Source: Arthrobacter sp. zg-Y919 (lineage in GTDB: Bacteria > Actinomycetota > Actinomycetes > Actinomycetales > Micrococcaceae). From it: a stretch of 64,000 bases of DNA. Both the position numbers and the translations under genes were made by a program. This document shows, piece by piece, positions 12,620 through 24,589 of the stretch. Within the stretch, counting starts at the first letter, position 1. Each line of letters begins with the position of its first letter. The stretch is from the NCBI RefSeq assembly GCF_030142045.1, contig NZ_CP126242.1, positions 868,001 to 932,000 on the forward strand, read 5' to 3'. The notes under the pieces were generated by a model. The model saw nothing but the letters and a program-made list of their open reading frames with translations. It did not search any database and was not told where the DNA came from.

Positions 12620-12712
12620 TGTGTTTTAAATGCGTTTACACACCACGTAATTCGATTGCACGTGTTTCTCCGGGCTTGGCGGGGGCATGCGCAGCGTCGG
12701 CCGTGAAGGGCA

Positions 12713-12750
12713 GGCCGGGAGGGGTATGCAGCTTTCCTTGTCTCCCGGCC
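12713..12750 (-). terminator. Possible terminator after ugd
   Basis: GGCCGGGAG at 12713-12721 pairs with 12742-12750 across a 20-base loop, just past the stop of the UDP-glucose dehydrogenase gene. It is weak because of the long loop and lacks a clear T run. Confidence 0.35.
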
Positions 12751-12759
12751 GGGTGGTCC

Positions 12760-14073
12760 TCAGGGCCGGCCCATGCCCTTGTAGTTCCAGCCTGCAGCCC
12801 GCCATGCGGCCGGGTCAAGGACATTGCGGCCGTCGATGATGTTCTTGTCTGCGACCAGTGGCCCGGTGGATACCGGGTCAAGAGACCGGTATTCCTTCCA
12901 CTCGGTGAGGAGCACCACCACGTGGGCGCCGAGCAGGGCGTTTTCGGTGGCCGGTTCGTAGCTCAACTCGGGGAAGCGGCCCTTGGCGTTCTGCAGTGCC
13001 TGGGGATCGGTCACTGTGACGGTGGCACCCTGGAGCTGGAGCTGCGCTGCGGCACTGAGGGCGGGGGAGTCGCGGACGTCGTCGCTCTCCGGCTTAAAGG
13101 CCGCACCCAGGATAGTCACGCGTTTACCCAACAGGGATCCACCGCAGACCTCCCGCGTCATCTCCACGACCTTGGACCGGCGCCGCATATTGATTGCGTC
13201 CACCTCCCGGAGGAAGGTGAGGGCCTGATCGGCGCCGAGTTCGCCGGCACGGGCCATAAAGGCGCGGATGTCCTTGGGCAGGCAGCCTCCGCCGAACCCG
13301 ACGCCCGCATTCAGGAAACTCCGCCCGATGCGTTCGTCCATGCCAATGGCATCGGCGAGGGCCGTGACGTCGGCTCCGGACGCGTCACACACCTCCGCCA
13401 TGGCATTGATGAAACTGATCTTGGTGGCGAGGAAGGAGTTTGCGGCGGTCTTGACCAGCTCGGCCGTCGCGTAGTCCATGGTCAACCGGGGTGTGCCTGC
13501 GGCCAGCGGTGCCGCATATGCCTGGTCGAGGACCGCGGTGGCGGCAGCGCCTGACGGGCCTTCGGGCAGTCCGTAGACCAGGCGGTCAGGGGAGAGGGTG
13601 TCCTGTATGGCGTGGCCCTCGCGCAGGAATTCCGGGTTCCAGGCCAGGACGGCTCCGGGTGCTTCATGCGCCAGATACTCGGCCAGCCGCGCGGCGGTAC
13701 CCACCGGAACCGTGGACTTGCCCGCTATGACGTCTCCGGGTGCCAGATGGGGTGCCAGCCCGGCGACGGCTGCATCCACGTAGCGCATGTCTGCCGCGTA
13801 TTCGCCCTTTCGCTGCGGCGTCCCAACGCAGAGGAAATGAACCTCAGCGCCGGCTGCATCGGCCGGATCCGTGCTGAATGCCAGCCGGCCGCTCCCGAGC
13901 GCTTCCGCAAGAAGCTCAGGCAGCCGGGGCTCGAAAAAGGGAGCGCGTCCAGCGGCCAGGTCTCCGATCCTTGCTGCGTCGACGTCGATACCCACTACGT
14001 CGTGCCCCAGTTTCGCCATGGAAACCGCGTGGACGGCCCCCAGATAGCCGCAGCCAATAACGGAAATACGCAC
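12760..14073 (-). CDS. ugd: UDP-glucose 6-dehydrogenase
   Basis: Oxidises UDP-glucose to UDP-glucuronate with two NAD+ for exopolysaccharide or wall glycan synthesis in the cytoplasm. The N-terminal Rossmann motif reads VIGCGYLGAVHA and the catalytic cysteine is in FGGGCLPKD, about 265 residues in. A GTG at 14073 is preferred as start because AGGGGA lies just upstream; an in-frame ATG at 14094 would add seven residues. Its location between a wall protein and a two-component set fits a surface or biofilm role, but this is inference. Full-length, no damage seen. Confidence 0.93.
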   Translation of the reverse strand: MRISVIGCGYLGAVHAVSMAKLGHDVVGIDVDAARIGDLAAGRAPFFEPRLPELLAEALGSGRLAFSTDPADAAGAEVHFLCVGTPQRKGEYAADMRYVDAAVAGLAPHLAPGDVIAGKSTVPVGTAARLAEYLAHEAPGAVLAWNPEFLREGHAIQDTLSPDRLVYGLPEGPSGAAATAVLDQAYAAPLAAGTPRLTMDYATAELVKTAANSFLATKISFINAMAEVCDASGADVTALADAIGMDERIGRSFLNAGVGFGGGCLPKDIRAFMARAGELGADQALTFLREVDAINMRRRSKVVEMTREVCGGSLLGKRVTILGAAFKPESDDVRDSPALSAAAQLQLQGATVTVTDPQALQNAKGRFPELSYEPATENALLGAHVVVLLTEWKEYRSLDPVSTGPLVADKNIIDGRNVLDPAAWRAAGWNYKGMGRP

Positions 14074-14142
14074 TGTTCCCCTATGTTTCATCACGGTTTT
14101 TCGGGCCGCAACAACCTTATCCTGCGCGCAGGATAGGCGGCA

Positions 14143-15810
14143 TCAGGGGACTTCGACCGGCAGGACCACACGGAAGGTGCTTCCGGCACCGAGCTCTGAG
14201 GTGAAGGAGATACGGCCCCCGTGTGCCTCGACAATGGACTTCGTAATGACCAGTCCCAGGCCGACGCCGGGGATGGCGGCCTTCTTTACCTGGCCTGTCC
14301 GGAAAAACTTAGTGAACACATCCCGCTGGTCCTCCTCACTCATGCCGATGCCGGTGTCCTGGACCTCCAGGACTACGTGTCCGCCCTCCCGGCGGGAACG
14401 TACGGTGACCGAGCCGCCGTCGGGAGAGTATTTGACGGCGTTGGAGAGGAGGTTATCGAGCACCTGGGAGATCCGGTCCGGATCAACCTCTGCTTCCAGC
14501 GTCGGTTCACAGTCACAGTCCACGGTGACTCCAATGACCGAAGCCCGGGGCCTCACGGTATCCAGGCTGGCACGGACGAGTTCGGCGACGTCCGTTTTCC
14601 GGCGGTGCAGGTGCATGGTCCCTGAAGCGGTGGTCAGCAGGTCGGCAACCAGCAGCAGCAGGCGTTCGGCATTGCGCTGGGCAACCCGCAGCGCGCTGTG
14701 GAGGTGGCCGGGGACCCCGTCCATCTCCGGGTCATCCAGGACCAGGTCGAGGTAGCCGATGATCGACGTCAGGGGTGTCCTGAGCTCGTGCGACACGCTG
14801 GAGACGAAGTCTTCCTTGGCATTGAGTGCGTTCACCATGTCGGTCACGTCGCTGTAGGCCAGCACCGAGCCGGCAAACTCCCCGTTGTCCCGCAGCGCCC
14901 GGGAACAGACGGCCAGCGCGCGCTGGTGGTTGGCCGGCCCGACCCACATGATGACATCGGAAAAGGACTCTTCACGCAGTGCCCGCTGGGCCGGGCGTTG
15001 GGCCGGTGCCAGGGGCGTGACCTGGTCCAGATCGAAAATGAGGGCGTCCTCGCCATGGATGGGTACGCCATCCGCGATGGCGAGGGCATGGTTGGCCCGT
15101 TGCCGGCTGTTCATGAGGATGGTCTGCCCCTTGGCATCGATGGCCATAACGCCAACGTCCACCGTCTCCAGCACTCCATCAAGCAGCTGGGAGCGCAGCC
15201 GTGTTTCCTGCAGGCTGCCCTGCAGCTGCGCCTCGGCCGCGGTGAGCCGTGCACGTTGAACGGATGTATCGTTCTCCACCGTCGAGACCACTATGGCGAT
15301 GCCCATCATGACGAACGGAATAAGCAGCGGAGCGGCCAGTTCTACCAGCTCGGGTGATCCCTGGCTGAAAATCGGGGCCCACAGCACCAGCGTGGTGCAG
15401 ACATAGCTGAGTATCCAGGCCGCACGTGGTGCCGCACCGGACCAGGCCATCCAGAAAACAGGGAAGACGGCCAGGAAACTCAGCCCGATTACGGAGTTTC
15501 TGCCGTCATGGTAAAGGCCGCCCACCACAGCGAAATCCAGCACAGGGATAATCCAATAAGCCAGCGGGGAATACCGCTCCCACGGCACCGCCACGCAGGC
15601 CGCAGTCAAGAGGGCAAGAAGTACCAGGCCTAATTGAAAACTGTGGCTGCCGAAAACGGCGGGGGCGACGACGGCAGTAATCGGCAGCGCTACGGCAACC
15701 GAAATCACGAGTGGGAGCTGGCTTATCAACAGTCTCAATCGAAGACTTAGTTCATTAAACTGCGATTTGATCCCCATCATGGCAGCCGCACGGTCTTGGA
15801 GACTGGACAT
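14143..15810 (-). CDS. Membrane sensor histidine kinase (PAS-type)
   Basis: A 555-residue kinase. Several hydrophobic segments occupy about residues 25-180, with a coiled linker and a PAS-like domain at about 205-320. The DHp phosphoacceptor is His341 in SHELRTPLTS, followed by the N box LDNLLSNAVKYSPDGG (about 451-466), DTGIGMS and GVGLGL. All kinase boxes are intact. It is encoded divergently, 120 bases from the OmpR-type regulator, and is a paralogue of the kinase at 16841-18517. Shared phrases include MNSRQR in the PAS-like region and VFPVFWM in the membrane part. It probably phosphorylates the neighbouring regulator; the stimulus is unknown. Confidence 0.9.
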   Translation of the reverse strand: MSSLQDRAAAMMGIKSQFNELSLRLRLLISQLPLVISVAVALPITAVVAPAVFGSHSFQLGLVLLALLTAACVAVPWERYSPLAYWIIPVLDFAVVGGLYHDGRNSVIGLSFLAVFPVFWMAWSGAAPRAAWILSYVCTTLVLWAPIFSQGSPELVELAAPLLIPFVMMGIAIVVSTVENDTSVQRARLTAAEAQLQGSLQETRLRSQLLDGVLETVDVGVMAIDAKGQTILMNSRQRANHALAIADGVPIHGEDALIFDLDQVTPLAPAQRPAQRALREESFSDVIMWVGPANHQRALAVCSRALRDNGEFAGSVLAYSDVTDMVNALNAKEDFVSSVSHELRTPLTSIIGYLDLVLDDPEMDGVPGHLHSALRVAQRNAERLLLLVADLLTTASGTMHLHRRKTDVAELVRASLDTVRPRASVIGVTVDCDCEPTLEAEVDPDRISQVLDNLLSNAVKYSPDGGSVTVRSRREGGHVVLEVQDTGIGMSEEDQRDVFTKFFRTGQVKKAAIPGVGLGLVITKSIVEAHGGRISFTSELGAGSTFRVVLPVEVP

Positions 15811-15930
15811 ATAAAATTGGAACCCCCGGATTCCTATAGTGGTAGCTCAGATTATAGGGGTGCTCCTGTAAGATACGGTGCAAGGGGTGCGGACAATCAG
15901 AACGTCCGCGGGACAGGAAAAAATACAGGC

Positions 15931-16755
15931 ATGGAAATACAGCGCGTAGCCGTCATCATCGAAGACGACGCAGATATCCGGGATCTTCTATATGCAGTTC
16001 TGCAGCAGTCCGGTTTTAAGGTCTTCACTGCACCGAACGGCTCGGAAGGCGTCGAAACCGTGCGGCTGCATAATCCCACGGTCGTCACCCTGGATCTGGG
16101 CCTCCCCGACATTGACGGGTTCGAGGTGATTCGGCAGCTGCGGCAGTTCAGCGACGCGTACATCGTGATGCTCACCGCCCGCGCCGAGGAGCTCGATACC
16201 CTGATGGGACTCGAAGCCGGAGCAGACGACTACATCACCAAGCCTTTCCGGCCGCGGGAGCTCCGCGCACGGATCTCGGCCATGCTCCGCCGCCCGCGCG
16301 GGGAATCCGGTGCAGCGTCAGACATCCCCGATTCCGGCGGTACTGCTGCTTCCGCTCCCGAAGGGGCGCCGGTGGCAACCCTCACGGCATCAGCCCCCGT
16401 GTCCGCGCAGATGGTCCCGGCCGCTCCGGGGACGTTCGCCCACAACGGCCTGACCCTGGACCCGGGCACCCGGACCACCGAGATTAACGGTGAGGGCGTG
16501 GAACTGACCCGCACCGAATTCGACCTGCTGCATGCCCTTCTGGAGGGAGGCCGGCTGGTACGGACCAAGACGGACCTGGTCCGGCGGCTGCGCGGCGAGG
16601 AATATGACACGGGCTCCTTCATCAGCGATGCGGATGAGCGGACTGTGGAAGTGCATGTGGGTAACCTCCGCCGCAAACTTGGCGACGATTCGAAGTCGCC
16701 GCGCTGGCTCGAGACCGTACGCGGCGTCGGCTACCGTCTGGCACCGCAGGTTTGA
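15931..16755 (+). CDS. OmpR-family response regulator
   Basis: A 274-residue two-domain regulator. The receiver holds the acidic pair (IIEDDADIRD), the phosphoacceptor Asp in TLDLGLPDIDG, and Lys in DDYITKPF. An Ala/Pro-rich linker of about 50 residues, longer than usual, leads to a winged-helix DNA-binding domain (VELTRTEFDLL ... ETVRGVGYRL). The ATG at 15931 gives a clean receiver start; upstream in-frame sequence is a poor protein. It is flanked by two histidine kinase genes on the opposite strand, both candidate partners. The divergent surface-protein operon at 19618 is a plausible target. Confidence 0.92.
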   Translation: MEIQRVAVIIEDDADIRDLLYAVLQQSGFKVFTAPNGSEGVETVRLHNPTVVTLDLGLPDIDGFEVIRQLRQFSDAYIVMLTARAEELDTLMGLEAGADDYITKPFRPRELRARISAMLRRPRGESGAASDIPDSGGTAASAPEGAPVATLTASAPVSAQMVPAAPGTFAHNGLTLDPGTRTTEINGEGVELTRTEFDLLHALLEGGRLVRTKTDLVRRLRGEEYDTGSFISDADERTVEVHVGNLRRKLGDDSKSPRWLETVRGVGYRLAPQV

Positions 16756-16761
16756 TGGCGC

Positions 16762-16786
16762 GGTTCCGGGTCCCTGACCCGGAACC
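16762..16786 (+). terminator. Terminator after the response regulator
   Basis: A perfect 11-base stem (GGTTCCGGGTC at 16762-16772 with 16776-16786) and a three-base loop directly follow the response regulator stop. There is no T run, but the position and stability support termination. Confidence 0.6.
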
Positions 16787-16797
16787 CCGCCGCCCGT

Positions 16798-16822
16798 GCC
16801 CGGGCCTACACGCTGCCCGGGC
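16798..16822 (-). terminator. Hairpin after second histidine kinase
   Basis: GCCCGGGC at 16798-16805 repeats in inverted form at 16815-16822, just beyond the stop of the minus-strand kinase. A modest GC stem, possibly a terminator for that gene. Confidence 0.4.
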
Positions 16823-16840
16823 TTAAACGCGGCCCGGCGC

Positions 16841-18517
16841 CTATGCGCCGGCCGGCAGTTCGACGGTAAAGGCGGTGCCGCGTCCCTGGGCGCTTTCCAC
16901 CCGGATGCTGCCGCCGTGCGCTTCGACAATATCCTTGGTGATCGCCATCCCGAGTCCTACTCCGGGGATACCCGCCAGCCGCACCGTACCGGCCCGGAAG
17001 AACTTCTCAAAGACATCCTCCACATCGTCGGCGGACATGCCCATACCGGTATCCGCCACACGGAACACCGCGCTGCCGCCTTCACGCCAGGCACTTACCG
17101 TAACCGTGCCGCCGTCGGGGGAGTATTTGACGGCGTTGGAAAGCAGGTTGTCCAGTACCTGGGTGATGCGGTGCGGATCCGCGGTCAGCGGCAGGTCGGC
17201 GGGGGTGTCGTCGACCAGTACGACGCCGGCCTCCCGCGCCTTTGTCTCTGCTGTGCCGAGACTGCTGCGGATGAGTTCAGCGAGGCACACAGGGCGGGTC
17301 TCCAAATGGACTGTGCCCGAGGCTGCGGTGAGGAGGTCCGACACCAGGCGAAGCAACCGCTCGCTGTTCCGCAGTGCAATCCGCAGGGATCCTGGGATCC
17401 CGCCCTGCAGCTGGCTGTCCTCGGCTTCGTCCAGCGCGAGCTCCAGATAACCCATGATCGACGTCAATGGGGTGCGGAGCTCGTGCGAGACGCTGGCAAC
17501 AAAATCGTCCTTGGCTGCCAGCGCTCCGACAAGGGCGGTCACGTCGGAAAAAACGAGGACCGCGCCATTGAAGCCGCCGTCGTCGGTGCGGAGTACGGCC
17601 CCGGAAGTGTTGAGGGCCACCTGCGCGCCGGGAGGGCCCAGCCACAACTGGACGTCGCGGAAGTCCGAGCCTTGCAGGGCGCGTGCAACGGGACGCTGGT
17701 CATCGGGAACCGGAGTGGTGCGGTCCAGGGTGTAGAGGAGCAGGTCGCGTTCATGCGGGTCCACCGTCCCGGCCGGCAGGGCACGCTCCTGGAGGAGTCG
17801 TTGACGGCTGTTCATATGCCGGGGCAGACCGTCCTCGTCCACCAGGAGGACGCCGACGTCGATCGCGTTCAGCACTCCGTCGAGCTGCTGGGACCGCCGC
17901 TTGCTCTCCGCCAGCGCAGCTTCAAGGAGCCGGTCCTTGTTCTCCAGGGTTTCGCGCTGGGAGCGGATATCTTCCCGGAGCACTGAGACAGTGACCGCGA
18001 CGCCGAAGCTCACCAGTGGAACGAGCAGCGGGGCGGCAAGATCCGCTCCGTCGAAGGGACCGGAACCGCCCAGGATGAACGGATGCCAAACCGACAGCAA
18101 GGGGCAGAAAAGACTCAGTGCCCGGGCGGCTACGGGGGAGACCCGGGACCACGACATCCAGAAGACCGGGAAAACGTGGAGAAGGCTCAGGCCGGTAAGG
18201 ATGCCAGTGCTGCCATGGTGCAGCATGGCGATGGCGACGAAGTCGAGCAGTGGAATGATCCAATACGACGGGTACCAGAGGCGGTTCCATGGAATAGCGA
18301 TGCACGCGGCGGTAACGAGCACCAGCATGATGAGTCCCGCAACGAATTCCTGCCGTTCGAAGACCTCCGGCAACTGCCAGGCAGCGACGGCGCTGATAAC
18401 CCCCACAACGATGACCAACGGTGCCTGGCTCAGCGCTGTCCGGATACGCAGCGGCAGTTCATGGAATTGCGAGCTTATGCCGAAAAACCCCAGCGTCGAC
18501 TGCGACAACCGCGACAT
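16841..18517 (-). CDS. Membrane sensor histidine kinase, paralogue of neighbour
   Basis: A 558-residue kinase with the same plan as the one at 14143: hydrophobic N-terminal half to about residue 180, PAS-like segment, then SHELRTPLTS with His345, the N box LDNLLSNAVKYSPDGG, ADTGMGMS and GVGLGM. The ATG at 18517 is chosen because AAGGGGG lies seven bases upstream and the sequence then aligns with the paralogue from its first residues; an upstream in-frame start would add 19 residues. The pair flank a single response regulator, so they may feed two inputs to one output or form heterodimers. Confidence 0.9.
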   Translation of the reverse strand: MSRLSQSTLGFFGISSQFHELPLRIRTALSQAPLVIVVGVISAVAAWQLPEVFERQEFVAGLIMLVLVTAACIAIPWNRLWYPSYWIIPLLDFVAIAMLHHGSTGILTGLSLLHVFPVFWMSWSRVSPVAARALSLFCPLLSVWHPFILGGSGPFDGADLAAPLLVPLVSFGVAVTVSVLREDIRSQRETLENKDRLLEAALAESKRRSQQLDGVLNAIDVGVLLVDEDGLPRHMNSRQRLLQERALPAGTVDPHERDLLLYTLDRTTPVPDDQRPVARALQGSDFRDVQLWLGPPGAQVALNTSGAVLRTDDGGFNGAVLVFSDVTALVGALAAKDDFVASVSHELRTPLTSIMGYLELALDEAEDSQLQGGIPGSLRIALRNSERLLRLVSDLLTAASGTVHLETRPVCLAELIRSSLGTAETKAREAGVVLVDDTPADLPLTADPHRITQVLDNLLSNAVKYSPDGGTVTVSAWREGGSAVFRVADTGMGMSADDVEDVFEKFFRAGTVRLAGIPGVGLGMAITKDIVEAHGGSIRVESAQGRGTAFTVELPAGA

Positions 18518-18618
18518 GCGTGACCCCCTTGTAAGCACAACAGGGTCTAACGATACCGGTGGTACAGGTGTCAAATGACCGTGCCGGTCCGGTGCGGACC
18601 CGCCGGAAGGACGGTCCC

Positions 18619-18993
18619 TTACCGGGACACTTCCACATCCAGGGAAGCCGAGAGAAAAGACATGGTCTCGGTGCCGCAGCGGTCAATCGTCTGGACCATA
18701 TTCCTTAGTCCGGCCAGGTCATAAGCGGCCACCAGATCCTGCGCCTGGCTGGCCAGGGCAGACAGGCGTTCGGCCCCTGCCATGTGGCTGGAAATCTTGA
18801 TGCTCAGGACTACGTCCATCGCAGCATCGAAGTCCTGGTGTTCCACAGCCTGCACGAGGCGGGTGAACCGTCCGTCCCACATGGAGAGGTAATTCCCGAT
18901 GTACTGCCGGCACGTACGTGCGCCCATCTGCTCACTGAGGTCCAGGAGGGTGCCCAGGGCAATCAGCCGGGGCTGTCCGCCGCGATGCATCAT
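18619..18993 (-). CDS. HPt-like domain protein lacking the phosphoacceptor histidine
   Basis: A 124-residue all-helical protein whose pattern fits a histidine phosphotransfer domain from about residue 25. In the family the active helix reads roughly AHxLKGSSxxxGAxxL; here it is VLSIKISSHMAGAERL. Lys, the small residues and Gly-Ala are kept, but Leu sits where the phosphorylated His should be. AGGGAAG precedes the ATG pair at 18993/18990. It lies directly upstream of the second histidine kinase on the same strand and divergent from the surface-protein operon. It could bind a receiver or kinase without transferring phosphate. The family assignment is by pattern and is moderately secure. Confidence 0.65.
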   Translation of the reverse strand: MMHRGGQPRLIALGTLLDLSEQMGARTCRQYIGNYLSMWDGRFTRLVQAVEHQDFDAAMDVVLSIKISSHMAGAERLSALASQAQDLVAAYDLAGLRNMVQTIDRCGTETMSFLSASLDVEVSR

Positions 18994-19617
18994 GCGGCAC
19001 TTCCCTGATGGTGGTGGCGGGAGGCGGCCGGGCCGGGCCGGAGCCGGCAACCGGTGACGGCCAGCGGCTGGACCGGTGTCCCGGTCCGCTGGTCCCGCGG
19101 GAAAGAGAGGTACAAAAAAATTTCCTTCGAGTGTGGGGCTCGTCGATGGTCGTGAAACTGTCCTGGCAGGGAAACTTCCTGCGACACGTCCCACAGTGGC
19201 ACTAAAACCTCAGGATGGAGTGCCCGCGACACTCAAGATCGAGGCAATATTTAGTGCGCGGTTTAGTGCGCCCTTTAAAGCGTTCCGGCGGGCTCTGCCG
19301 AACGCCGGGCGGCATCCCTCCCCAACGCTCCGGTGGATGCCCGCACCAGGACCGGTCCGTCGACGTCGACTGCCCCCGGCACTGCATTCCGGCACTGCAT
19401 TCCGGCCATGCAGGAGGTGCGTTTCGCTGGTTGACTCCGGTTCGTGGGACCCGGTTGAGGGGACATTGCGGTTGTCTTGCGCAGCAGTTGAGGTTTTGCG
19501 GAATGTTTCTCCAACCCTGTGTGAAGGGCGCCGCGATTCTTGAGGACGGCCGGGGAAAGTGGAAGCCAACGGCAGGAAGAACTTCCTGGCCCAAGACTTT
19601 CGAACAAGGGGAACAAG
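18994..19617. other. Long intergenic region upstream of the SipW/TasA-like operon
   Basis: About 620 bases with no supported gene between two divergent units. It contains a seven-A tract and AT-rich patch at 19114-19132, direct repeats TTTAGTGCGC at 19250 and 19262, and a tandem CACTGCATTCCGG repeat around 19379-19405. A TTGACT at 19431-19436 has no good partner -10. The length and repeat content suggest a regulated promoter region. Confidence 0.5.
19250..19271. promoter_or_regulatory. Direct repeats, possible response-regulator site
   Basis: TTTAGTGCGC occurs at 19250-19259 and again at 19262-19271, a 12-base period. OmpR-type regulators commonly bind head-to-tail repeats of about one helical turn, so this is a candidate site for the neighbouring regulator. 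It sits about 350 bases before the operon start, so the link is tentative. Confidence 0.35.
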
Positions 19618-20124
19618 ATGAACAAGATGGCTAAAGGCGCACTGGCAATCGGTCTCGGCTCGGCAATGCTGCTCGGCGGCGGCGGAACGCTCGCCGTCTG
19701 GAATGACAAGGCAACCGCCGATGCGGGAATCATCCAGGCCGGCAGCCTGGATGTCGCAGCCGAGCCGGGTGTCTGGACCAACGCCGCCGGCGTGATCGAC
19801 ATTGCCTCGTACAAGGTTGTACCGGGCGAGCAGCTCACCTTCATCCAGAACGTCGACGTTACCCTCGAGGGTAACCAGATGAAGGCCCAGCTGAGCCTGG
19901 ACCCCGTCGCGGCCAACAGCTTCAAGGGCAGCGCGTATCCCGTGGTGACCTACACGAAGGGCGGCCAGAAGTTCGATCCCGCGAAGGACTTCCTGACCAC
20001 CACCAGCGAGATCACCGCGAAGGCCGTCTTCACCTTCAACCCGAACACCACGGGTCAGCAGGACATGGGCGCGACCCTGGACCTCTCGAAGGTCAACTAC
20101 ATCCTGACGCAGGTCGCCAAGTAA
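19618..20124 (+). CDS. TasA/camelysin-like exported protein with SipW-type signal peptide
   Basis: A 168-residue protein. The start at 19618 has AAGGGGA upstream. The N-terminus MNKMAKGALAIGLGSAML is followed by GGTLAVWNDKA and AGSLDV, the pattern of SipW-cognate signal peptides in which the cleaved region contains a GTxAxW element. The mature part is Thr/Val/Asn-rich beta sequence without cysteine, as in fibre-forming TasA-type proteins. It heads an operon that also encodes the matching signal peptidase. A fibre or matrix role is inferred from the family and context, not shown by sequence alone. Confidence 0.82.
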   Translation: MNKMAKGALAIGLGSAMLLGGGGTLAVWNDKATADAGIIQAGSLDVAAEPGVWTNAAGVIDIASYKVVPGEQLTFIQNVDVTLEGNQMKAQLSLDPVAANSFKGSAYPVVTYTKGGQKFDPAKDFLTTTSEITAKAVFTFNPNTTGQQDMGATLDLSKVNYILTQVAK

Positions 20125-20209
20125 CACCCGCCCCACCCCCTTGTTCTAACCCTGGTTGTGCGCGGCGCCTACGCACCGCGCACAACCTGTTCCCCTGGAG
20201 GAAGAATCC

Positions 20210-20758
20210 GTGAAGAGCCTACTGAAAGCAGCCGGGTTGATCCTGGCCGCTGTCGTACTGGGGCTCATGACGGTCCAGGGGAGCTACGCACTGTGGAACG
20301 TTATGGTTCCCCAGAACGCCGGCACCGTCCAGGCAGCTGACTTCACTGTCCTGGTGAATGAAGCCAACATGGCCTCCACTCCGGCCCTGGCGCTTAACGC
20401 CGGCGGATTGAACCGCGGAACGGCGGCCTACACCGCTGTGCGGGTGACCAACACGGTCAACGTCACCGCGCAGTCCCCGTTGGTCCTGCAGCCGTCGGTA
20501 TCGCTTCCCCCGGCCGCCAGCATGCTGAACGGGAACCTGACGGTAGCCACCACGGTTCTCCCGGGATCGACCTCCTGCCCCGAAAATCTTGCCTACAAAG
20601 CGGGCGCCCCTGTTCTTCCGGTCCTGGCTACGGGAACCACCCAGACCATTTGCTTCAAGGTTTCGCTGAACAGCAATACCCCGGCGAACCAGCTCGGACA
20701 GCCGGTCAACATCCCGGTAAACCTCAGCGTGGCGCAGCTCGCGCCGGCAGCTAAGTGA
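20210..20758 (+). CDS. Second SipW-dependent exported protein
   Basis: 182 residues from a GTG at 20210 with TGGAGGA upstream. The N-terminal KSLLKAAGLILAAVVLGLMT ends in GSYALWN, the SipW-type recognition element, followed by AGTVQAADFTV. The mature part is beta-rich with two cysteines (SCPENL and TICFKV), unlike the first protein. It lies between the TasA-like gene and the signal peptidase gene, and its stop overlaps an in-frame GTG of the latter. It is probably an accessory or anchoring subunit of the same surface structure, by analogy with TapA-like roles; that analogy is inference. Confidence 0.78.
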   Translation: MKSLLKAAGLILAAVVLGLMTVQGSYALWNVMVPQNAGTVQAADFTVLVNEANMASTPALALNAGGLNRGTAAYTAVRVTNTVNVTAQSPLVLQPSVSLPPAASMLNGNLTVATTVLPGSTSCPENLAYKAGAPVLPVLATGTTQTICFKVSLNSNTPANQLGQPVNIPVNLSVAQLAPAAK

Positions 20759-20772
20759 CGGATAGGAAAACC

Positions 20773-21534
20773 ATGTCGAGTGGCCGCAGGACAGCAGAGA
20801 AGCCCGCCAGCCCGCTGCGTTTCATCGGAGCCGGGTTGAGCTACCTGGCCCTGTGTGCCACGGCTCTGGTTGCCCTGGTCCTGATAGTCATTCCGCTGGT
20901 GACCGGTTCGCAGACCTTCAGCGTCCTGACCAGCTCCATGGCACCGCACTACGCTCCGGGCACCTTCCTGGTGGTCAAACCCACACCGTTCGAGGAACTG
21001 CGCACCGGCGACGTGATCACCTACCAGATCGAGTCCGGCAGCTCTGCAGTCATCACCCACCGGATCAATTCCATCGGCACCGCCCAGGACGGGGAACGGA
21101 CCCTGTTCACCAAGGGTGACAACAATGCCATTGTCGACCCCGAGCCGGTACGCGAGGTCCAGGTCCGCGGCAAGCTCTTCTACGCCGTCCCCTTCATTGG
21201 TTTTGCCGCCAACGCCCTGGGCAACTCGGACCGGGGCGAGGCCATCCAGTGGGGCGCGGTAGCGCTGCTCGGCTACGGCATCGTCACCATGGTCCGCGGT
21301 GCCCTGGCCAAGAAACGTGGAGAAGGCGACTCCGGGCCGGCTGAAGCCGACAACGGAAACCCCGGCAATGACCTCACCGACGGCGGCGCGGCCCCGGTGC
21401 AGGCTCCCCGTGCCAGCGTCCCCATGCAGGATCCCTTCGGCCATGACGATCCCCACCTGGAAGAGTGCGAGCACTGCAACCATGACAGTGCACACCCGCA
21501 CATCCACAGCCGCCGGAAGCCCGTCGCTGTCTGA
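20773..21534 (+). CDS. sipW: SipW-type signal peptidase I with His/Cys-rich tail
   Basis: A membrane serine protease that removes SipW-type signal peptides outside the membrane. After an N-terminal transmembrane segment come SSMAPHYAPG with the catalytic Ser (residue 55) and ITHRI with His96, the Ser-His arrangement of ER/SipW-type enzymes rather than Ser-Lys. TKGDNNAIVDPEPV follows. A second transmembrane helix at about residues 155-175 leads to a tail of about 80 residues ending in a cluster of His and Cys (HDDPHLEECEHCNHD, then HPHIH). The ATG at 20773 has AGGAAA upstream; a GTG at 20755 is possible. The metal-binding-like tail is not part of the usual family layout. Confidence 0.87.
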   Translation: MSSGRRTAEKPASPLRFIGAGLSYLALCATALVALVLIVIPLVTGSQTFSVLTSSMAPHYAPGTFLVVKPTPFEELRTGDVITYQIESGSSAVITHRINSIGTAQDGERTLFTKGDNNAIVDPEPVREVQVRGKLFYAVPFIGFAANALGNSDRGEAIQWGAVALLGYGIVTMVRGALAKKRGEGDSGPAEADNGNPGNDLTDGGAAPVQAPRASVPMQDPFGHDDPHLEECEHCNHDSAHPHIHSRRKPVAV

Positions 21535-22475
21535 TGCCCTTCCCTGGACGGGCGAAGCAGTGGCTCACCGCCGGCGCGGTGGGCGTTGCCGCCGCAGCCA
21601 TCACGTTTGCCGGTTCCCCTGCGGCCGTTGCCGCCGGCAGCTACCTCACCTTCAGCCCTGACGGCAGCACGTACAGCCCCACCCTCGACGGCCCCGTCTT
21701 CGCCGAAAGCGCCCGGTTGGTCCCCGGTGGATCCACCGGCGGAAGCGTCTGGATCCGCAATGACGGTGCCGATGCGGCTTATCTTTCGGCCGGTGCCGTC
21801 AGCGCCGGGATGGATCCGGAGCTCGTGGGCATGCTCAGTGTGAGCGCATCCGCCGGTGCCGTGGGCGGGCCGCCGGCAGTCCTGGGCTCCAACGGGATGT
21901 GCAGCGACGTTTACCAGGGATGGGTGCTGGGGGCCGGGGACGCCGTCCGCATCCAGCTCACTGCCGGCCTGTCGCCGGACGCTCCGAACGCAGCCATGGG
22001 CCGCAGCGCCCGGTTCGACGTCGTGTTTTACCTGCAGTCCACGAACATCGCAGGTACCGGTCCCAGCGCCTGCGAAGCACTGGGGATTCTCGACGCTTCC
22101 GTGCCGCCGTCGGACCCCGGAGTGGCGGCAGGCAACGGCCCCGGCAACGACGCCCGGACTACCGGCCGGCAGGCACCTGCGCCGCGGCCGGGATCCGGGA
22201 CGGTGCCGGGCCTGGCACCAGCCGGTGACGGAGGCGCGGCAGCCCTTGCCGGATTCCCCACCGCACCGGCGGCCCCCGGCGAGGAGGACAGGAACGCCGC
22301 CTTCAACACCAACGTTCCGCCGGTGGCCGCCGGACGTTTGGAAGAGTCATCGCCGGCGTCGTTCGAGAGCACGGTGGAACCCGTGATCCGTTCCCTGTCG
22401 GGTACGCTCCTGATAGCACTTTCGGTGGCGTTCTTCGCCACCGCGGGAATCCGACTACGAAGCAGGAGCCGATGA
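21534..22475 (+). CDS. Sec-exported surface protein with C-terminal membrane anchor
   Basis: 313 residues, start overlapping the signal peptidase stop (TGATG). A conventional signal peptide ends near SPAAVA (about residue 32-34), so export is probably by normal signal peptidase rather than SipW. The N-terminal 170 residues are beta-type with SYLTFSPDG and a cysteine pair (GMCSDV and SACEAL). A Pro/Gly/Ala-rich stalk follows, then a C-terminal helix GTLLIALSVAFFATAGI and a basic RLRSRSR end. It could anchor or cap the products of the operon. No family was recognised. Confidence 0.75.
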   Translation: MPFPGRAKQWLTAGAVGVAAAAITFAGSPAAVAAGSYLTFSPDGSTYSPTLDGPVFAESARLVPGGSTGGSVWIRNDGADAAYLSAGAVSAGMDPELVGMLSVSASAGAVGGPPAVLGSNGMCSDVYQGWVLGAGDAVRIQLTAGLSPDAPNAAMGRSARFDVVFYLQSTNIAGTGPSACEALGILDASVPPSDPGVAAGNGPGNDARTTGRQAPAPRPGSGTVPGLAPAGDGGAAALAGFPTAPAAPGEEDRNAAFNTNVPPVAAGRLEESSPASFESTVEPVIRSLSGTLLIALSVAFFATAGIRLRSRSR

Positions 22476-23062
22476 GCAGGAAATCGCAGCAGGGGGCTGC
22501 GGAGAGCGCCGAAGCTGGACAGGACACGCGGTCCGGACCGGCAGCGCGGCTGCGTCCCCAGCCGGGGTTACGCACCGCTGCGGCCGCGTTTATCGTGACT
22601 GTGCTCCTTGGCCTGGGCGGGACTGCCGCGTACGCCTACTGGAGCCAGTCCACGACGGCGACCATCACGGTCCTCCCGACGGCGAAGGTCCGGACGCCCG
22701 GCCCGCTTCATTGCAACCCCTGGGGCACGAATGAGCTTTCCTGGAAGACCGTTGCCGACGTTGATTCTGATGTGGTCTACGTGCTCACCTTCGCCATGGG
22801 TTCGACCAGCAAGACCTATGCACTTCCGCTGACCACGACGGAGGTGAAGCCCGTATATCTGTCCGGCCTGGCATCGGCGCTCGGGACCAGCAAAATGGTG
22901 CCGCTGACCGTAACCCTGCGGACCGCCACCGTGAACAAAGCCGTTCCGGCAGCCACGGCCATCGCCGCCTCCGACATTCTGGCCGCGTCGGAAGCGTCCA
23001 CGCTCCAGATGTCCTACTGGTCGCTGGTGGCGGGGGCCGGCAACTATCCCTGCGCCGGCTAG
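22472..23062 (+). CDS. Third SipW-dependent exported protein
   Basis: 196 residues, starting in a four-base ATGA overlap with the previous gene. A polar N-terminus of about 35 residues precedes the hydrophobic core [20 protein letters not shown] and the SipW-type element AYAYWSQS. The mature portion resembles a fibronectin-like beta sandwich ([20 protein letters not shown]) with two cysteines (LHCNPW and the C-terminal YPCAG). It is the last gene of the operon and converges with nhaA, overlapping its end by four bases. Role unknown beyond membership of the surface-protein set. Confidence 0.75.
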
Positions 23063-24423
23063 TCGTCCCGGCCTTCGTACACGTCAGGGATCCCATCCGA
23101 GTCAGCGTCAACCCGCTCCCGGGCCTCGATGAGACGGTACCGCCGGTTGCGGGCCGTCAGCAGCACCGAGGCCAGCAGGGCGGCGAGGACCGAAGCCATC
23201 AGGATGCCCACCTTGGCATCGTCGTTGTGCAGTGACCCGACGTCAAAACTCAAATCGTTGACCAGCAGGGACACGGTGAAGCCGATACCGCCGAGGATGC
23301 CTATGCCGGCCAGGTCCACCCAGCGGACGTCCGGGTCCAGCTTGGCCCGCGTCCCTGCAGTGACAGCCCAGGTGGTGAGCAGGATGCCGATGGGTTTGCC
23401 TACCACCAGGCCCAGGATGATCCCGACCGCCACCGGGTCTGTGACGGCCGCACTTACGCCACTCCATCCGCCGAGGGCAACACCGGCGGAAAAGAAGGCG
23501 AAGATAGGCACGGCGAAGCCGGTCGAGACAGGCCGGAAGCGGTGCTCGAATATTTCCGAGAGGCCCGGGCGCTCCGGGTCGGCGGGCAGTTTCTGCCGGT
23601 CCGGCCCGCGGCGCAGCACGGGCACCGCAAAGCCCAGCAGCACCCCGGCCACGGTGGCGTGGACACCGGAGGCATGCATCAGTGCCCACGTGGCTACACC
23701 AAGGGGCAGCAGGATCACCCAGGCCGGCCAGACGCGGGTGCCGAAGAACCGGGGGACGCGCTGGACCAGGAACGTGAACGCGGCCAGCGGGAGCAGCATC
23801 CACAACAGGTAGCTCAGGTGTACGTCTTCGGAGTAGAAGAAGGCAATGATGGCGATTGCGATGAGGTCATCCACCACGGCGAGGGTCAGCAGGAAGATCC
23901 GCAGCGCGCTGGGCAGGTGCGAACTGATCACTGCGAGGACGGCCAGGGCGAATGCGATGTCGGTGGCGGTGGGGATAGCCCAGCCCCGCAGGCCGTCCGA
24001 ACCGGCAATCACGTTGACGGCTACATAGACCAGGGCGGGGACGACGACGCCGCCCGCGGCGGCAGCAATCGGAACGATTGCCTGCCTCAGGTCTCTTAGG
24101 TCCCCGGCAATGAATTCCTTTTTCAGCTCCAGACCGACCAGGAAGAAGAAGATGGCCAGCAGCCCATCAGCCGCCCAGGTGCCGATGCTCAGCTTCAGGT
24201 GCCACGGCTCGTAGCCGATTTCGAAATCACGTACGGCAAAGTAGGTGTCTGCTGCCGGGGAGTTGGCCCAGATCAATGCGGCGACGGTCGCAATCAGCAA
24301 CAGGATCCCGCCTACGGTTTCCTTGCGGAGGATCTCGCCGATGCGGAGCGTTTCACCGTAGCTGCGCCTGCCCAGGATGGTGCGCGCGCCGGTTGGCTTG
24401 GGGGAAGAGGGGTCTGAGGCCAT
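23059..24423 (-). CDS. nhaA: Na+/H+ antiporter NhaA
   Basis: A 454-residue inner-membrane antiporter for Na+ extrusion and pH homeostasis. Typical motifs are [27 protein letters not shown] and the ion-binding Asp pair in AVVDDLIAI. The start at 24423 (MASDPSS) has TAGGA eight bases upstream; the frame runs further up but without family similarity. The last 20 residues are unusual: after [15 protein letters not shown] the protein ends with [16 protein letters not shown], a DxDxDG calcium-loop-like motif on the cytoplasmic or exposed end. Full length otherwise. Confidence 0.93.
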
Positions 24424-24546
24424 GGGATGGATCCTAACGAATTCGGGTACGGCAAACTTATTGCCGACCAGACTTCCCGGCGCACCGTGTACCAGTCTAA
24501 CCGGCTCAGGGCGCCAGCGCGTGACGCACGCCGCGCCGGCAGTGAA

Positions 24547-24575
24547 GCGCCCCGGCAGGAAACCTGCCGGGGCGC
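24547..24575 (-). terminator. Intrinsic terminator after the small membrane protein
   Basis: A perfect 13-base stem, GCGCCCCGGCAGG at 24547-24559 and its complement at 24563-24575, with a three-base loop. It lies just beyond the stop of the minus-strand pair 24590-25318 and before nhaA, so it likely separates the two units. Confidence 0.7.
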
Positions 24576-24589
24576 GTGACAAACGGAAC

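Follow-up and report, generated by a model that had tools for sequence, protein, structure and literature searches.

The tapA-sipW-tasA operon of Bacillus subtilis encodes a dedicated SipW (Ser-His) signal peptidase together with its SipW-signal substrates, and in plants AHP6 is a pseudo-histidine phosphotransfer protein (pseudo-HPt) that lacks the phospho-histidine and lowers phosphorelay output. The review PMC4238804, citing Terra et al. 2012, ascribes to B. subtilis SipW a further role in surface-adhered biofilm, and bacterial Hpt domains without the histidine are rare, at 90 of 10,312 sampled (PMC12632262). Here we describe a locus of Arthrobacter sp. zg-Y919 that likewise encodes a SipW-type peptidase with its putative substrates. 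It lies in a 64,000-nucleotide stretch (the window) of a 3.08-Mb single-contig genome. The gene order is a sensor kinase, HK1 (minus strand), an OmpR-type regulator (plus), a second kinase, HK2 (minus), and a pseudo-HPt (minus), followed on the plus strand by T1, T2, a signal peptidase, X and T3. We consider it probable on balance that this is a secretion operon, predicted to make a fibre, whose control lies with the adjacent kinase-regulator pair, and that the pseudo-HPt, having no histidine, acts by binding.

The pseudo-HPt is encoded as follows.

18619..18990, minus strand: pseudo-HPt of 123 aa, with Leu62 in place of the phospho-histidine and Ile66 in place of the glycine four residues further on (H+4); HPt fold in the predicted model

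The first-pass annotation had called this protein HPt-like. The predicted structure agrees, showing a four-helix HPt fold, but the phospho-histidine is missing: the protein has neither the histidine of the HxxKG motif nor a small residue at H+4. It is also the sole HPt-domain match in the genome. Among 154 distinct domains, counted after removal of exact duplicates, the canonical position is Leu in 135, Ile in 10, Ala in 4, Arg in 2 and Val, Gly and His in one each, so that 153 lack the histidine. Glycine at H+4 was found in none of the 154 (Ser or Ala in 29), while the H+10 glycine is kept in all 154 and Lys or Arg occupies H+3 in 104 of 127 domains. Counted by match, the histidine is missing in 78 of 79 family members and in 27 of 27 near a peptidase, and the window protein and its 34 close relatives are all without it. 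As a positive control, the same profile recovered His-bearing HPts in 15 of 27 loci of the class. In another family of the class, L087, L089 and L093 encode standalone HPts that retain the histidine and share a related SPAAMLGA motif; these are possibly active relatives of the pseudo-HPt. The His-bearing member within the family itself, at L214:2978-3574, reads AVHSVTTSSMMVGA; it lies beside an OmpR-type regulator and offers a natural counterpart with which the His-less members can be compared.

Next, we looked at the intergenic region common to T1 and the pseudo-HPt gene, which contains a phased array.

19455..19492, plus strand: candidate response-regulator array of four TTG(A/C)G half-sites with an exact 11-bp period and 0 mismatches to the four-repeat pattern

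OmpR/PhoB regulators typically use tandem half-sites one helical turn apart. The half-sites here, at 19455, 19466, 19477 and 19488, follow that pattern, and they fall within the 19.0-19.6 kb region where the earlier annotation had proposed looking for a regulator site. Allowing up to 3 mismatches, the four-repeat pattern gave three overlapping matches in the window against 0.05 expected. With at most 1 mismatch, this is the only place in the 3.08-Mb genome that matches the three-repeat pattern, which gave 1 control match. A tandem of CTTGAG with the 11-bp period (at most 2 mismatches over 12 bases) was present in 23 of 35 T1 upstream regions, compared with 0-6 for other spacings and 0.27 on average for shuffles. 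The motif core had been picked after viewing a few T1 upstream regions (L105, L110 and L112); reversed and shuffled sequence, the other spacings and a held-out set of pseudo-HPt promoters served as controls. When 141 loci (2.46 Mb) were scanned with a matrix built from the 23 sites, 132 matches exceeded 15 bits, against 5 in reversed sequence; the scanned loci include the training sites and some genomes present twice. In the held-out set, the pseudo-HPt upstream regions of loci without T1 after exact duplicates were dropped, 23 of 63 scored above 15 bits, compared with 1.4% of random and 0.0% of shuffled sequences. Another candidate regulator site, the TTTAGTGC repeats at 19250-19283, was rejected, being missing upstream of all 10 other T1 genes checked, several of which have approximate starts. 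That segment, unique in the genome, is a direct repeat, TTTAGTGCGC-N2-TTTAGTGCGC, accompanied by an inverted copy at about 19199.

We then compared gene order in relatives. The suggestion that the signalling genes and the operon occur together beyond chance was borne out, as linked sets recur. In 120 genomes of the family, the HPt-like protein was found in 49 (79 matches) and the peptidase in 84 (129 matches). A SipW-type peptidase match lies within 6 kb of the pseudo-HPt in 27 of the 79 cases, against 0.34 expected from random placement, and within 3 kb in 23 against 0.18; the 27 stem from 24 genomes, and related genomes are not independent. Conversely, 18 of the 25 strongest peptidase matches have a pseudo-HPt within 7 kb. 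Arthrobacter sp. zg-Y769 (L105) repeats the window's order of kinase, regulator, kinase, pseudo-HPt, T1, T2, peptidase, X, T3 and nhaA, with X and T3 recognised by eye and extra frames separating the pseudo-HPt from T1. Elsewhere the arrangement differs: the pseudo-HPt gene is divergent from T1 in the window and lies on the same strand directly behind the peptidase in L035-L039 and L043. In L040, L041 and L042 peptidase and pseudo-HPt form one continuous frame, and L168 is alike, though across an N run. Two hydrophobic segments surround the peptidase part of the L040-L042 fusions, and the HPt part is therefore predicted to be cytosolic. Glycosyltransferase-pseudo-HPt frames were found in six further loci (L074, L079, L110, L197, L200 and L203).

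A second scan used the regulator alignment as bait over named genomes and took the best 80 of at least 585 loci, a choice that leans to close relatives. A pseudo-HPt was present in 46 of these 80, in genera including Arthrobacter, Pseudarthrobacter, Paeniglutamicibacter, Sinomonas, Cryobacterium, Clavibacter, Isoptericola, Tessaracoccus and Micropruina. It was convergent with the regulator at no more than 150 bp in 33 of the 80, and 34 had none. Close relatives contribute several of the loci, and L035/L109, L057/L127 and L072/L144 each appear to be one genome in two collections. In several loci (L149, L154, L162, L166, L169 and L173), some of them from Microbacteriaceae, the gene convergent with the regulator is glycosyltransferase-like by eye and has no HPt match, which suggests a sister module for surface polysaccharide.

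The signalling genes of the window are these.

14143..15810, minus strand: HK1, membrane sensor histidine kinase of 555 aa with HisKA (PF00512, 57.4 bits) and HATPase_c (PF02518, 104.5 bits) domains and an intact H-box, SHELRTPL
15931..16755, plus strand: OmpR/PhoB-family response regulator of 274 aa (PF00072, 96.1 bits; PF00486, 71.9 bits)
16841..18574 (likely start 18517), minus strand: HK2, paralogue of HK1 (PF00512, 63.6 bits; PF02518, 101.2 bits), H-box intact

These Pfam matches confirm the two sensor kinases and the single OmpR-type regulator of the first-pass annotation. Its description of a divergent signalling block holds for the kinases and the HPt-like gene, which are on the minus strand, but not for the regulator on the plus strand, so the block is not one divergent transcription unit. 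The set has the hallmarks of an OmpR/PhoB two-component system: a full receiver catalytic set (D12, D13, D55, T82 and K104, invariant across 21 aligned module regulators), a winged-helix output domain and a HisKA kinase with its H-box. A Pfam search found no receiver domain in HK1 or HK2. The two kinases are 51% identical over 555 aa, indicating paralogy. Because a single kinase was found in the fetched stretch of five same-genus loci (L015-L017, L019 and L020) and two in L105, the second copy looks lineage-specific.

Together, these data suggest the following model. A signal would act through HK1 and HK2 to phosphorylate the regulator, which would bind the 11-bp tandem half-sites and drive T1-T2-peptidase-X-T3 and, from the common intergenic region, the pseudo-HPt gene. 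The peptidase would process T1, T2 and probably T3 for export and assembly on the surface. The pseudo-HPt may dock on a kinase or receiver without taking phosphate and so restrain signalling, as a product-feedback brake; in the lineages where it is fused to the peptidase or encoded directly behind it, the brake would be placed on the secretion machine itself. Binding is the expected mode of action because the phosphate-carrying histidine is missing. Yeast Ypd1 with a large residue at H+4 hardly accepts phosphate any more, yet its binding to the receiver is weakened only modestly (PMC6341664), which fits binding without transfer. Given a docking fold without an acceptor, and this precedent, the simplest reading is that the pseudo-HPt would brake the kinase-regulator pair.

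Several observations weigh against this model. Judged by sequence, the pseudo-HPt could be a brake or a helper. Paired-distance tests were all significant (60 of 71 pairs, 11 being left out for want of a nearby kinase), a result that interaction and shared ancestry would explain equally. The partial r values, calculated with species phylogeny still included, were 0.50 between pseudo-HPt and kinase catalytic domain and 0.35 between pseudo-HPt and receiver, a slight lean to the kinase that leaves either as a possible docking partner. The two-repeat pattern, although matched once in the genome and at this place, gave 6 control matches and is unspecific. No motif above 11 bits was found in 36 of the 63 held-out pseudo-HPt upstream regions; some of these genes lie directly behind a peptidase, where a promoter of their own is not needed, and many belong to solitary regulator/pseudo-HPt loci. 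As for linkage, a pseudo-HPt is missing within 7 kb of 7 of the 25 strongest peptidase matches, in one case (G032) because the contig ends there, and 52 of the 79 pseudo-HPt matches lie more than 6 kb from a peptidase, indicating that the module serves other outputs too. Finally, L214 (in G057) is the sole collected family member with the histidine; it is not near a peptidase match, and the loss is thus not universal.

The distance correlations bear as well on the best of the alternatives, which we regard as unlikely but worth serious attention: the pseudo-HPt as an anti-kinase that docks on the DHp or ATP-binding domain and inhibits autophosphorylation, leaving the regulator untouched. HPt and DHp are both helical bundles, and the higher correlation is indeed with the kinase catalytic domain. 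That correlation is not phylogeny-corrected, however, and it speaks against this reading that in 33 of 80 loci the pseudo-HPt is convergent with the regulator and no more than 150 bp away from it, a few of these loci (such as L136, L150 and L156) showing no module kinase in the stretch.

We give little credence to the idea that the HPt-like protein is still a phosphocarrier, using another residue such as His69 of the window protein or the conserved Ser63 in an ordinary kinase-regulator phosphorelay. The retained fold and the Lys or Arg at H+3 would suit such a role, as would the histidine in L214, and His69 lies only seven residues past the canonical site. Position 69, however, varies among His, Gln, Asp and Lys in close relatives and is occupied by still other residues in more distant ones, the H+4 glycine is lost in every one of the 154 domains (even if 29 have Ser or Ala), and with kinases that show no receiver domain and no other HPt domain found in the genome there is no relay in need of a carrier. 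Slightly weaker still is a chance neighbourhood, in which the two-component set controls other genes and merely adjoins the operon: regulator/pseudo-HPt sets, most with a kinase, do occur with no peptidase in the stretch (L055-L063, L065 and L067), but chance accounts poorly for linkage of 27 of 79 against 0.34 in several different arrangements, for single-frame fusions and for a phased three-repeat array found in the genome at the T1 promoter only.

Beyond the brake proposed for this locus, we raise a tentative generalization, possible rather than probable, that a bacterial family of phosphate-blind HPts couples export machines of envelope and matrix (SipW-type peptidases and surface glycosyltransferases) to the two-component systems that control them. 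A pseudo-HPt fused to an exporter, or made with it, would hold the kinase or regulator at the membrane, and might thereby report the amount or activity of the exporter.

The operon itself consists of the following elements.

19618..20124, plus strand: T1, exported protein with a SipW-type signal (LAVWN), putative major subunit (TIGR04089, 133.7 bits, cut-off 60; TIGR04088, 28.9 bits, cut-off 19)
20154..20187, plus strand: candidate attenuator or mRNA-stabilising hairpin in the T1/T2 gap, with a 12-bp outer stem (20125-20205 folds at -33.6 kcal/mol)
20210..20758, plus strand: T2, second protein with a SipW-type signal (GSYALWN), GTG start behind GGAGG; homologues adjoin T1 in relatives' loci
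20755..21534, plus strand: SipW/archaeal-type Ser-His signal peptidase (TIGR02228, 85.3 bits, cut-off 51.85), with SSMAP, ITHR and GDNN motifs
21534..22475, plus strand: X, with a Sec-type signal and, at the C terminus, a membrane anchor predicted from hydropathy (hydrophobic at residues 15-33 and 284-302)
22472..23062, plus strand: T3, third exported protein with a SipW-like signal (AYAYWSQ) and a hydrophobic segment at 32-50; homologues in relatives' loci

All genes named in the first-pass annotation are present. The Ser-His signal peptidase is well founded, in its TIGR02228 score and its S, H and GD motifs, but its 65.6 bits against the Bacillus SipW equivalog fall below the cut-off of 190. 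A Ser-His signal peptidase encoded with a substrate bearing a SipW-type signal is what SipW-dependent secretion calls for, and T1 is the only TIGR04088 match in the whole genome. Of the three SipW-type signals claimed, that of T1 was recognised by eye and has profile support, that of T2 was recognised by eye, and YAYWSQ in T3 resembles one; T2 and T3 matched no NCBIfam or Pfam family, their signals being assigned by eye only, and X likewise had no Pfam or NCBIfam match. As for the label SipW/TasA-like, T1 falls below the TasA and camelysin (M73) models (NF046066, 16.2 against a cut-off of 450; PF12389, 18.8 against 22.5). The predicted T1 structure is beta-rich (pLDDT 81.6), and comparison with the TasA jelly-roll fold gave no match that stood out. 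In the stretch from T2 to T3, every gene starts at or within the end of the preceding one (20755, 21534 and 22472), which supports a single transcript, and the T1/T2 hairpin could set the ratio of T1 to T2 expression. As a whole, the interpretation in the first-pass annotation is partly supported.

On one side the locus is flanked by a UDP-sugar dehydrogenase gene (12760-14094), on the other by an nhaA-type gene (23059-24582); these two names were assigned by eye, from the translations. ARAGORN called a tRNA-Gly (ccc) at 12709-12804, overlapping the 3' end of the dehydrogenase gene, which may be spurious. The nhaA-type Na+/H+ antiporter gene recurs by pseudo-HPt loci in varying arrangements, in the window and in L015, L016, L019, L020, L023, L024, L032, L033, L035, L055, L070, L073, L105 and L109. 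In L055, L070 and L073 it stands beside the pseudo-HPt with no SipW operon in the stretch, and in L026 nhaA is split into several frames.

Among the matches listed from open-licence literature, titles and abstract openings pointed to no experimental work on an actinobacterial SipW-type surface system, no bacterial standalone pseudo-HPt family linked to secretion and no SipW system with such a regulator. What we describe is a coherent family in several actinobacterial families, and its recurrent partners, predicted binding motif and natural fusions make the role of the pseudo-HPt directly testable. It also gives concrete access to the regulation of actinobacterial SipW-type surface systems.

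Compared with tapA-sipW-tasA, the T1 of the window belongs to TIGR04089 rather than to the TasA or camelysin models, X and T3 are extra, and the locus adds an OmpR-type two-component set and a pseudo-HPt, a domain that the peptidase itself carries in some relatives. The canonical HptB of Pseudomonas aeruginosa (PDB 7c1i) has the histidine and the H+4 glycine (AHSFKGGS), whereas these positions are Leu and Ile in the window protein (LSIKISS). The likeness to AHP6 lies in the missing phospho-histidine and the proposed role, and the present pseudo-HPt differs in being bacterial and tied to a secretion system and an OmpR-type regulator. His-less Hpt domains also occur in P. aeruginosa ChpA, where they are not phosphorylated in vitro and their function is not established (PMC10782961); those are parts of a CheA-type kinase, whereas the domains here form a standalone family or are fused to either a peptidase or a glycosyltransferase. 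In Caulobacter crescentus, the atypical HPt HmrB is a small, helical protein that lacks an HxxKG motif, is encoded beside a hybrid kinase and affects motility and adhesion; it is predicted to be a hairpin dimer, needs both histidines and is regarded by its authors as an active phosphotransferase (PMC11481889). The window protein, by contrast, is modelled as a monomeric HPt fold and has no histidine. In structural terms, the peptidase-pseudo-HPt fusions of its relatives may parallel the second function that SipW has in Bacillus.

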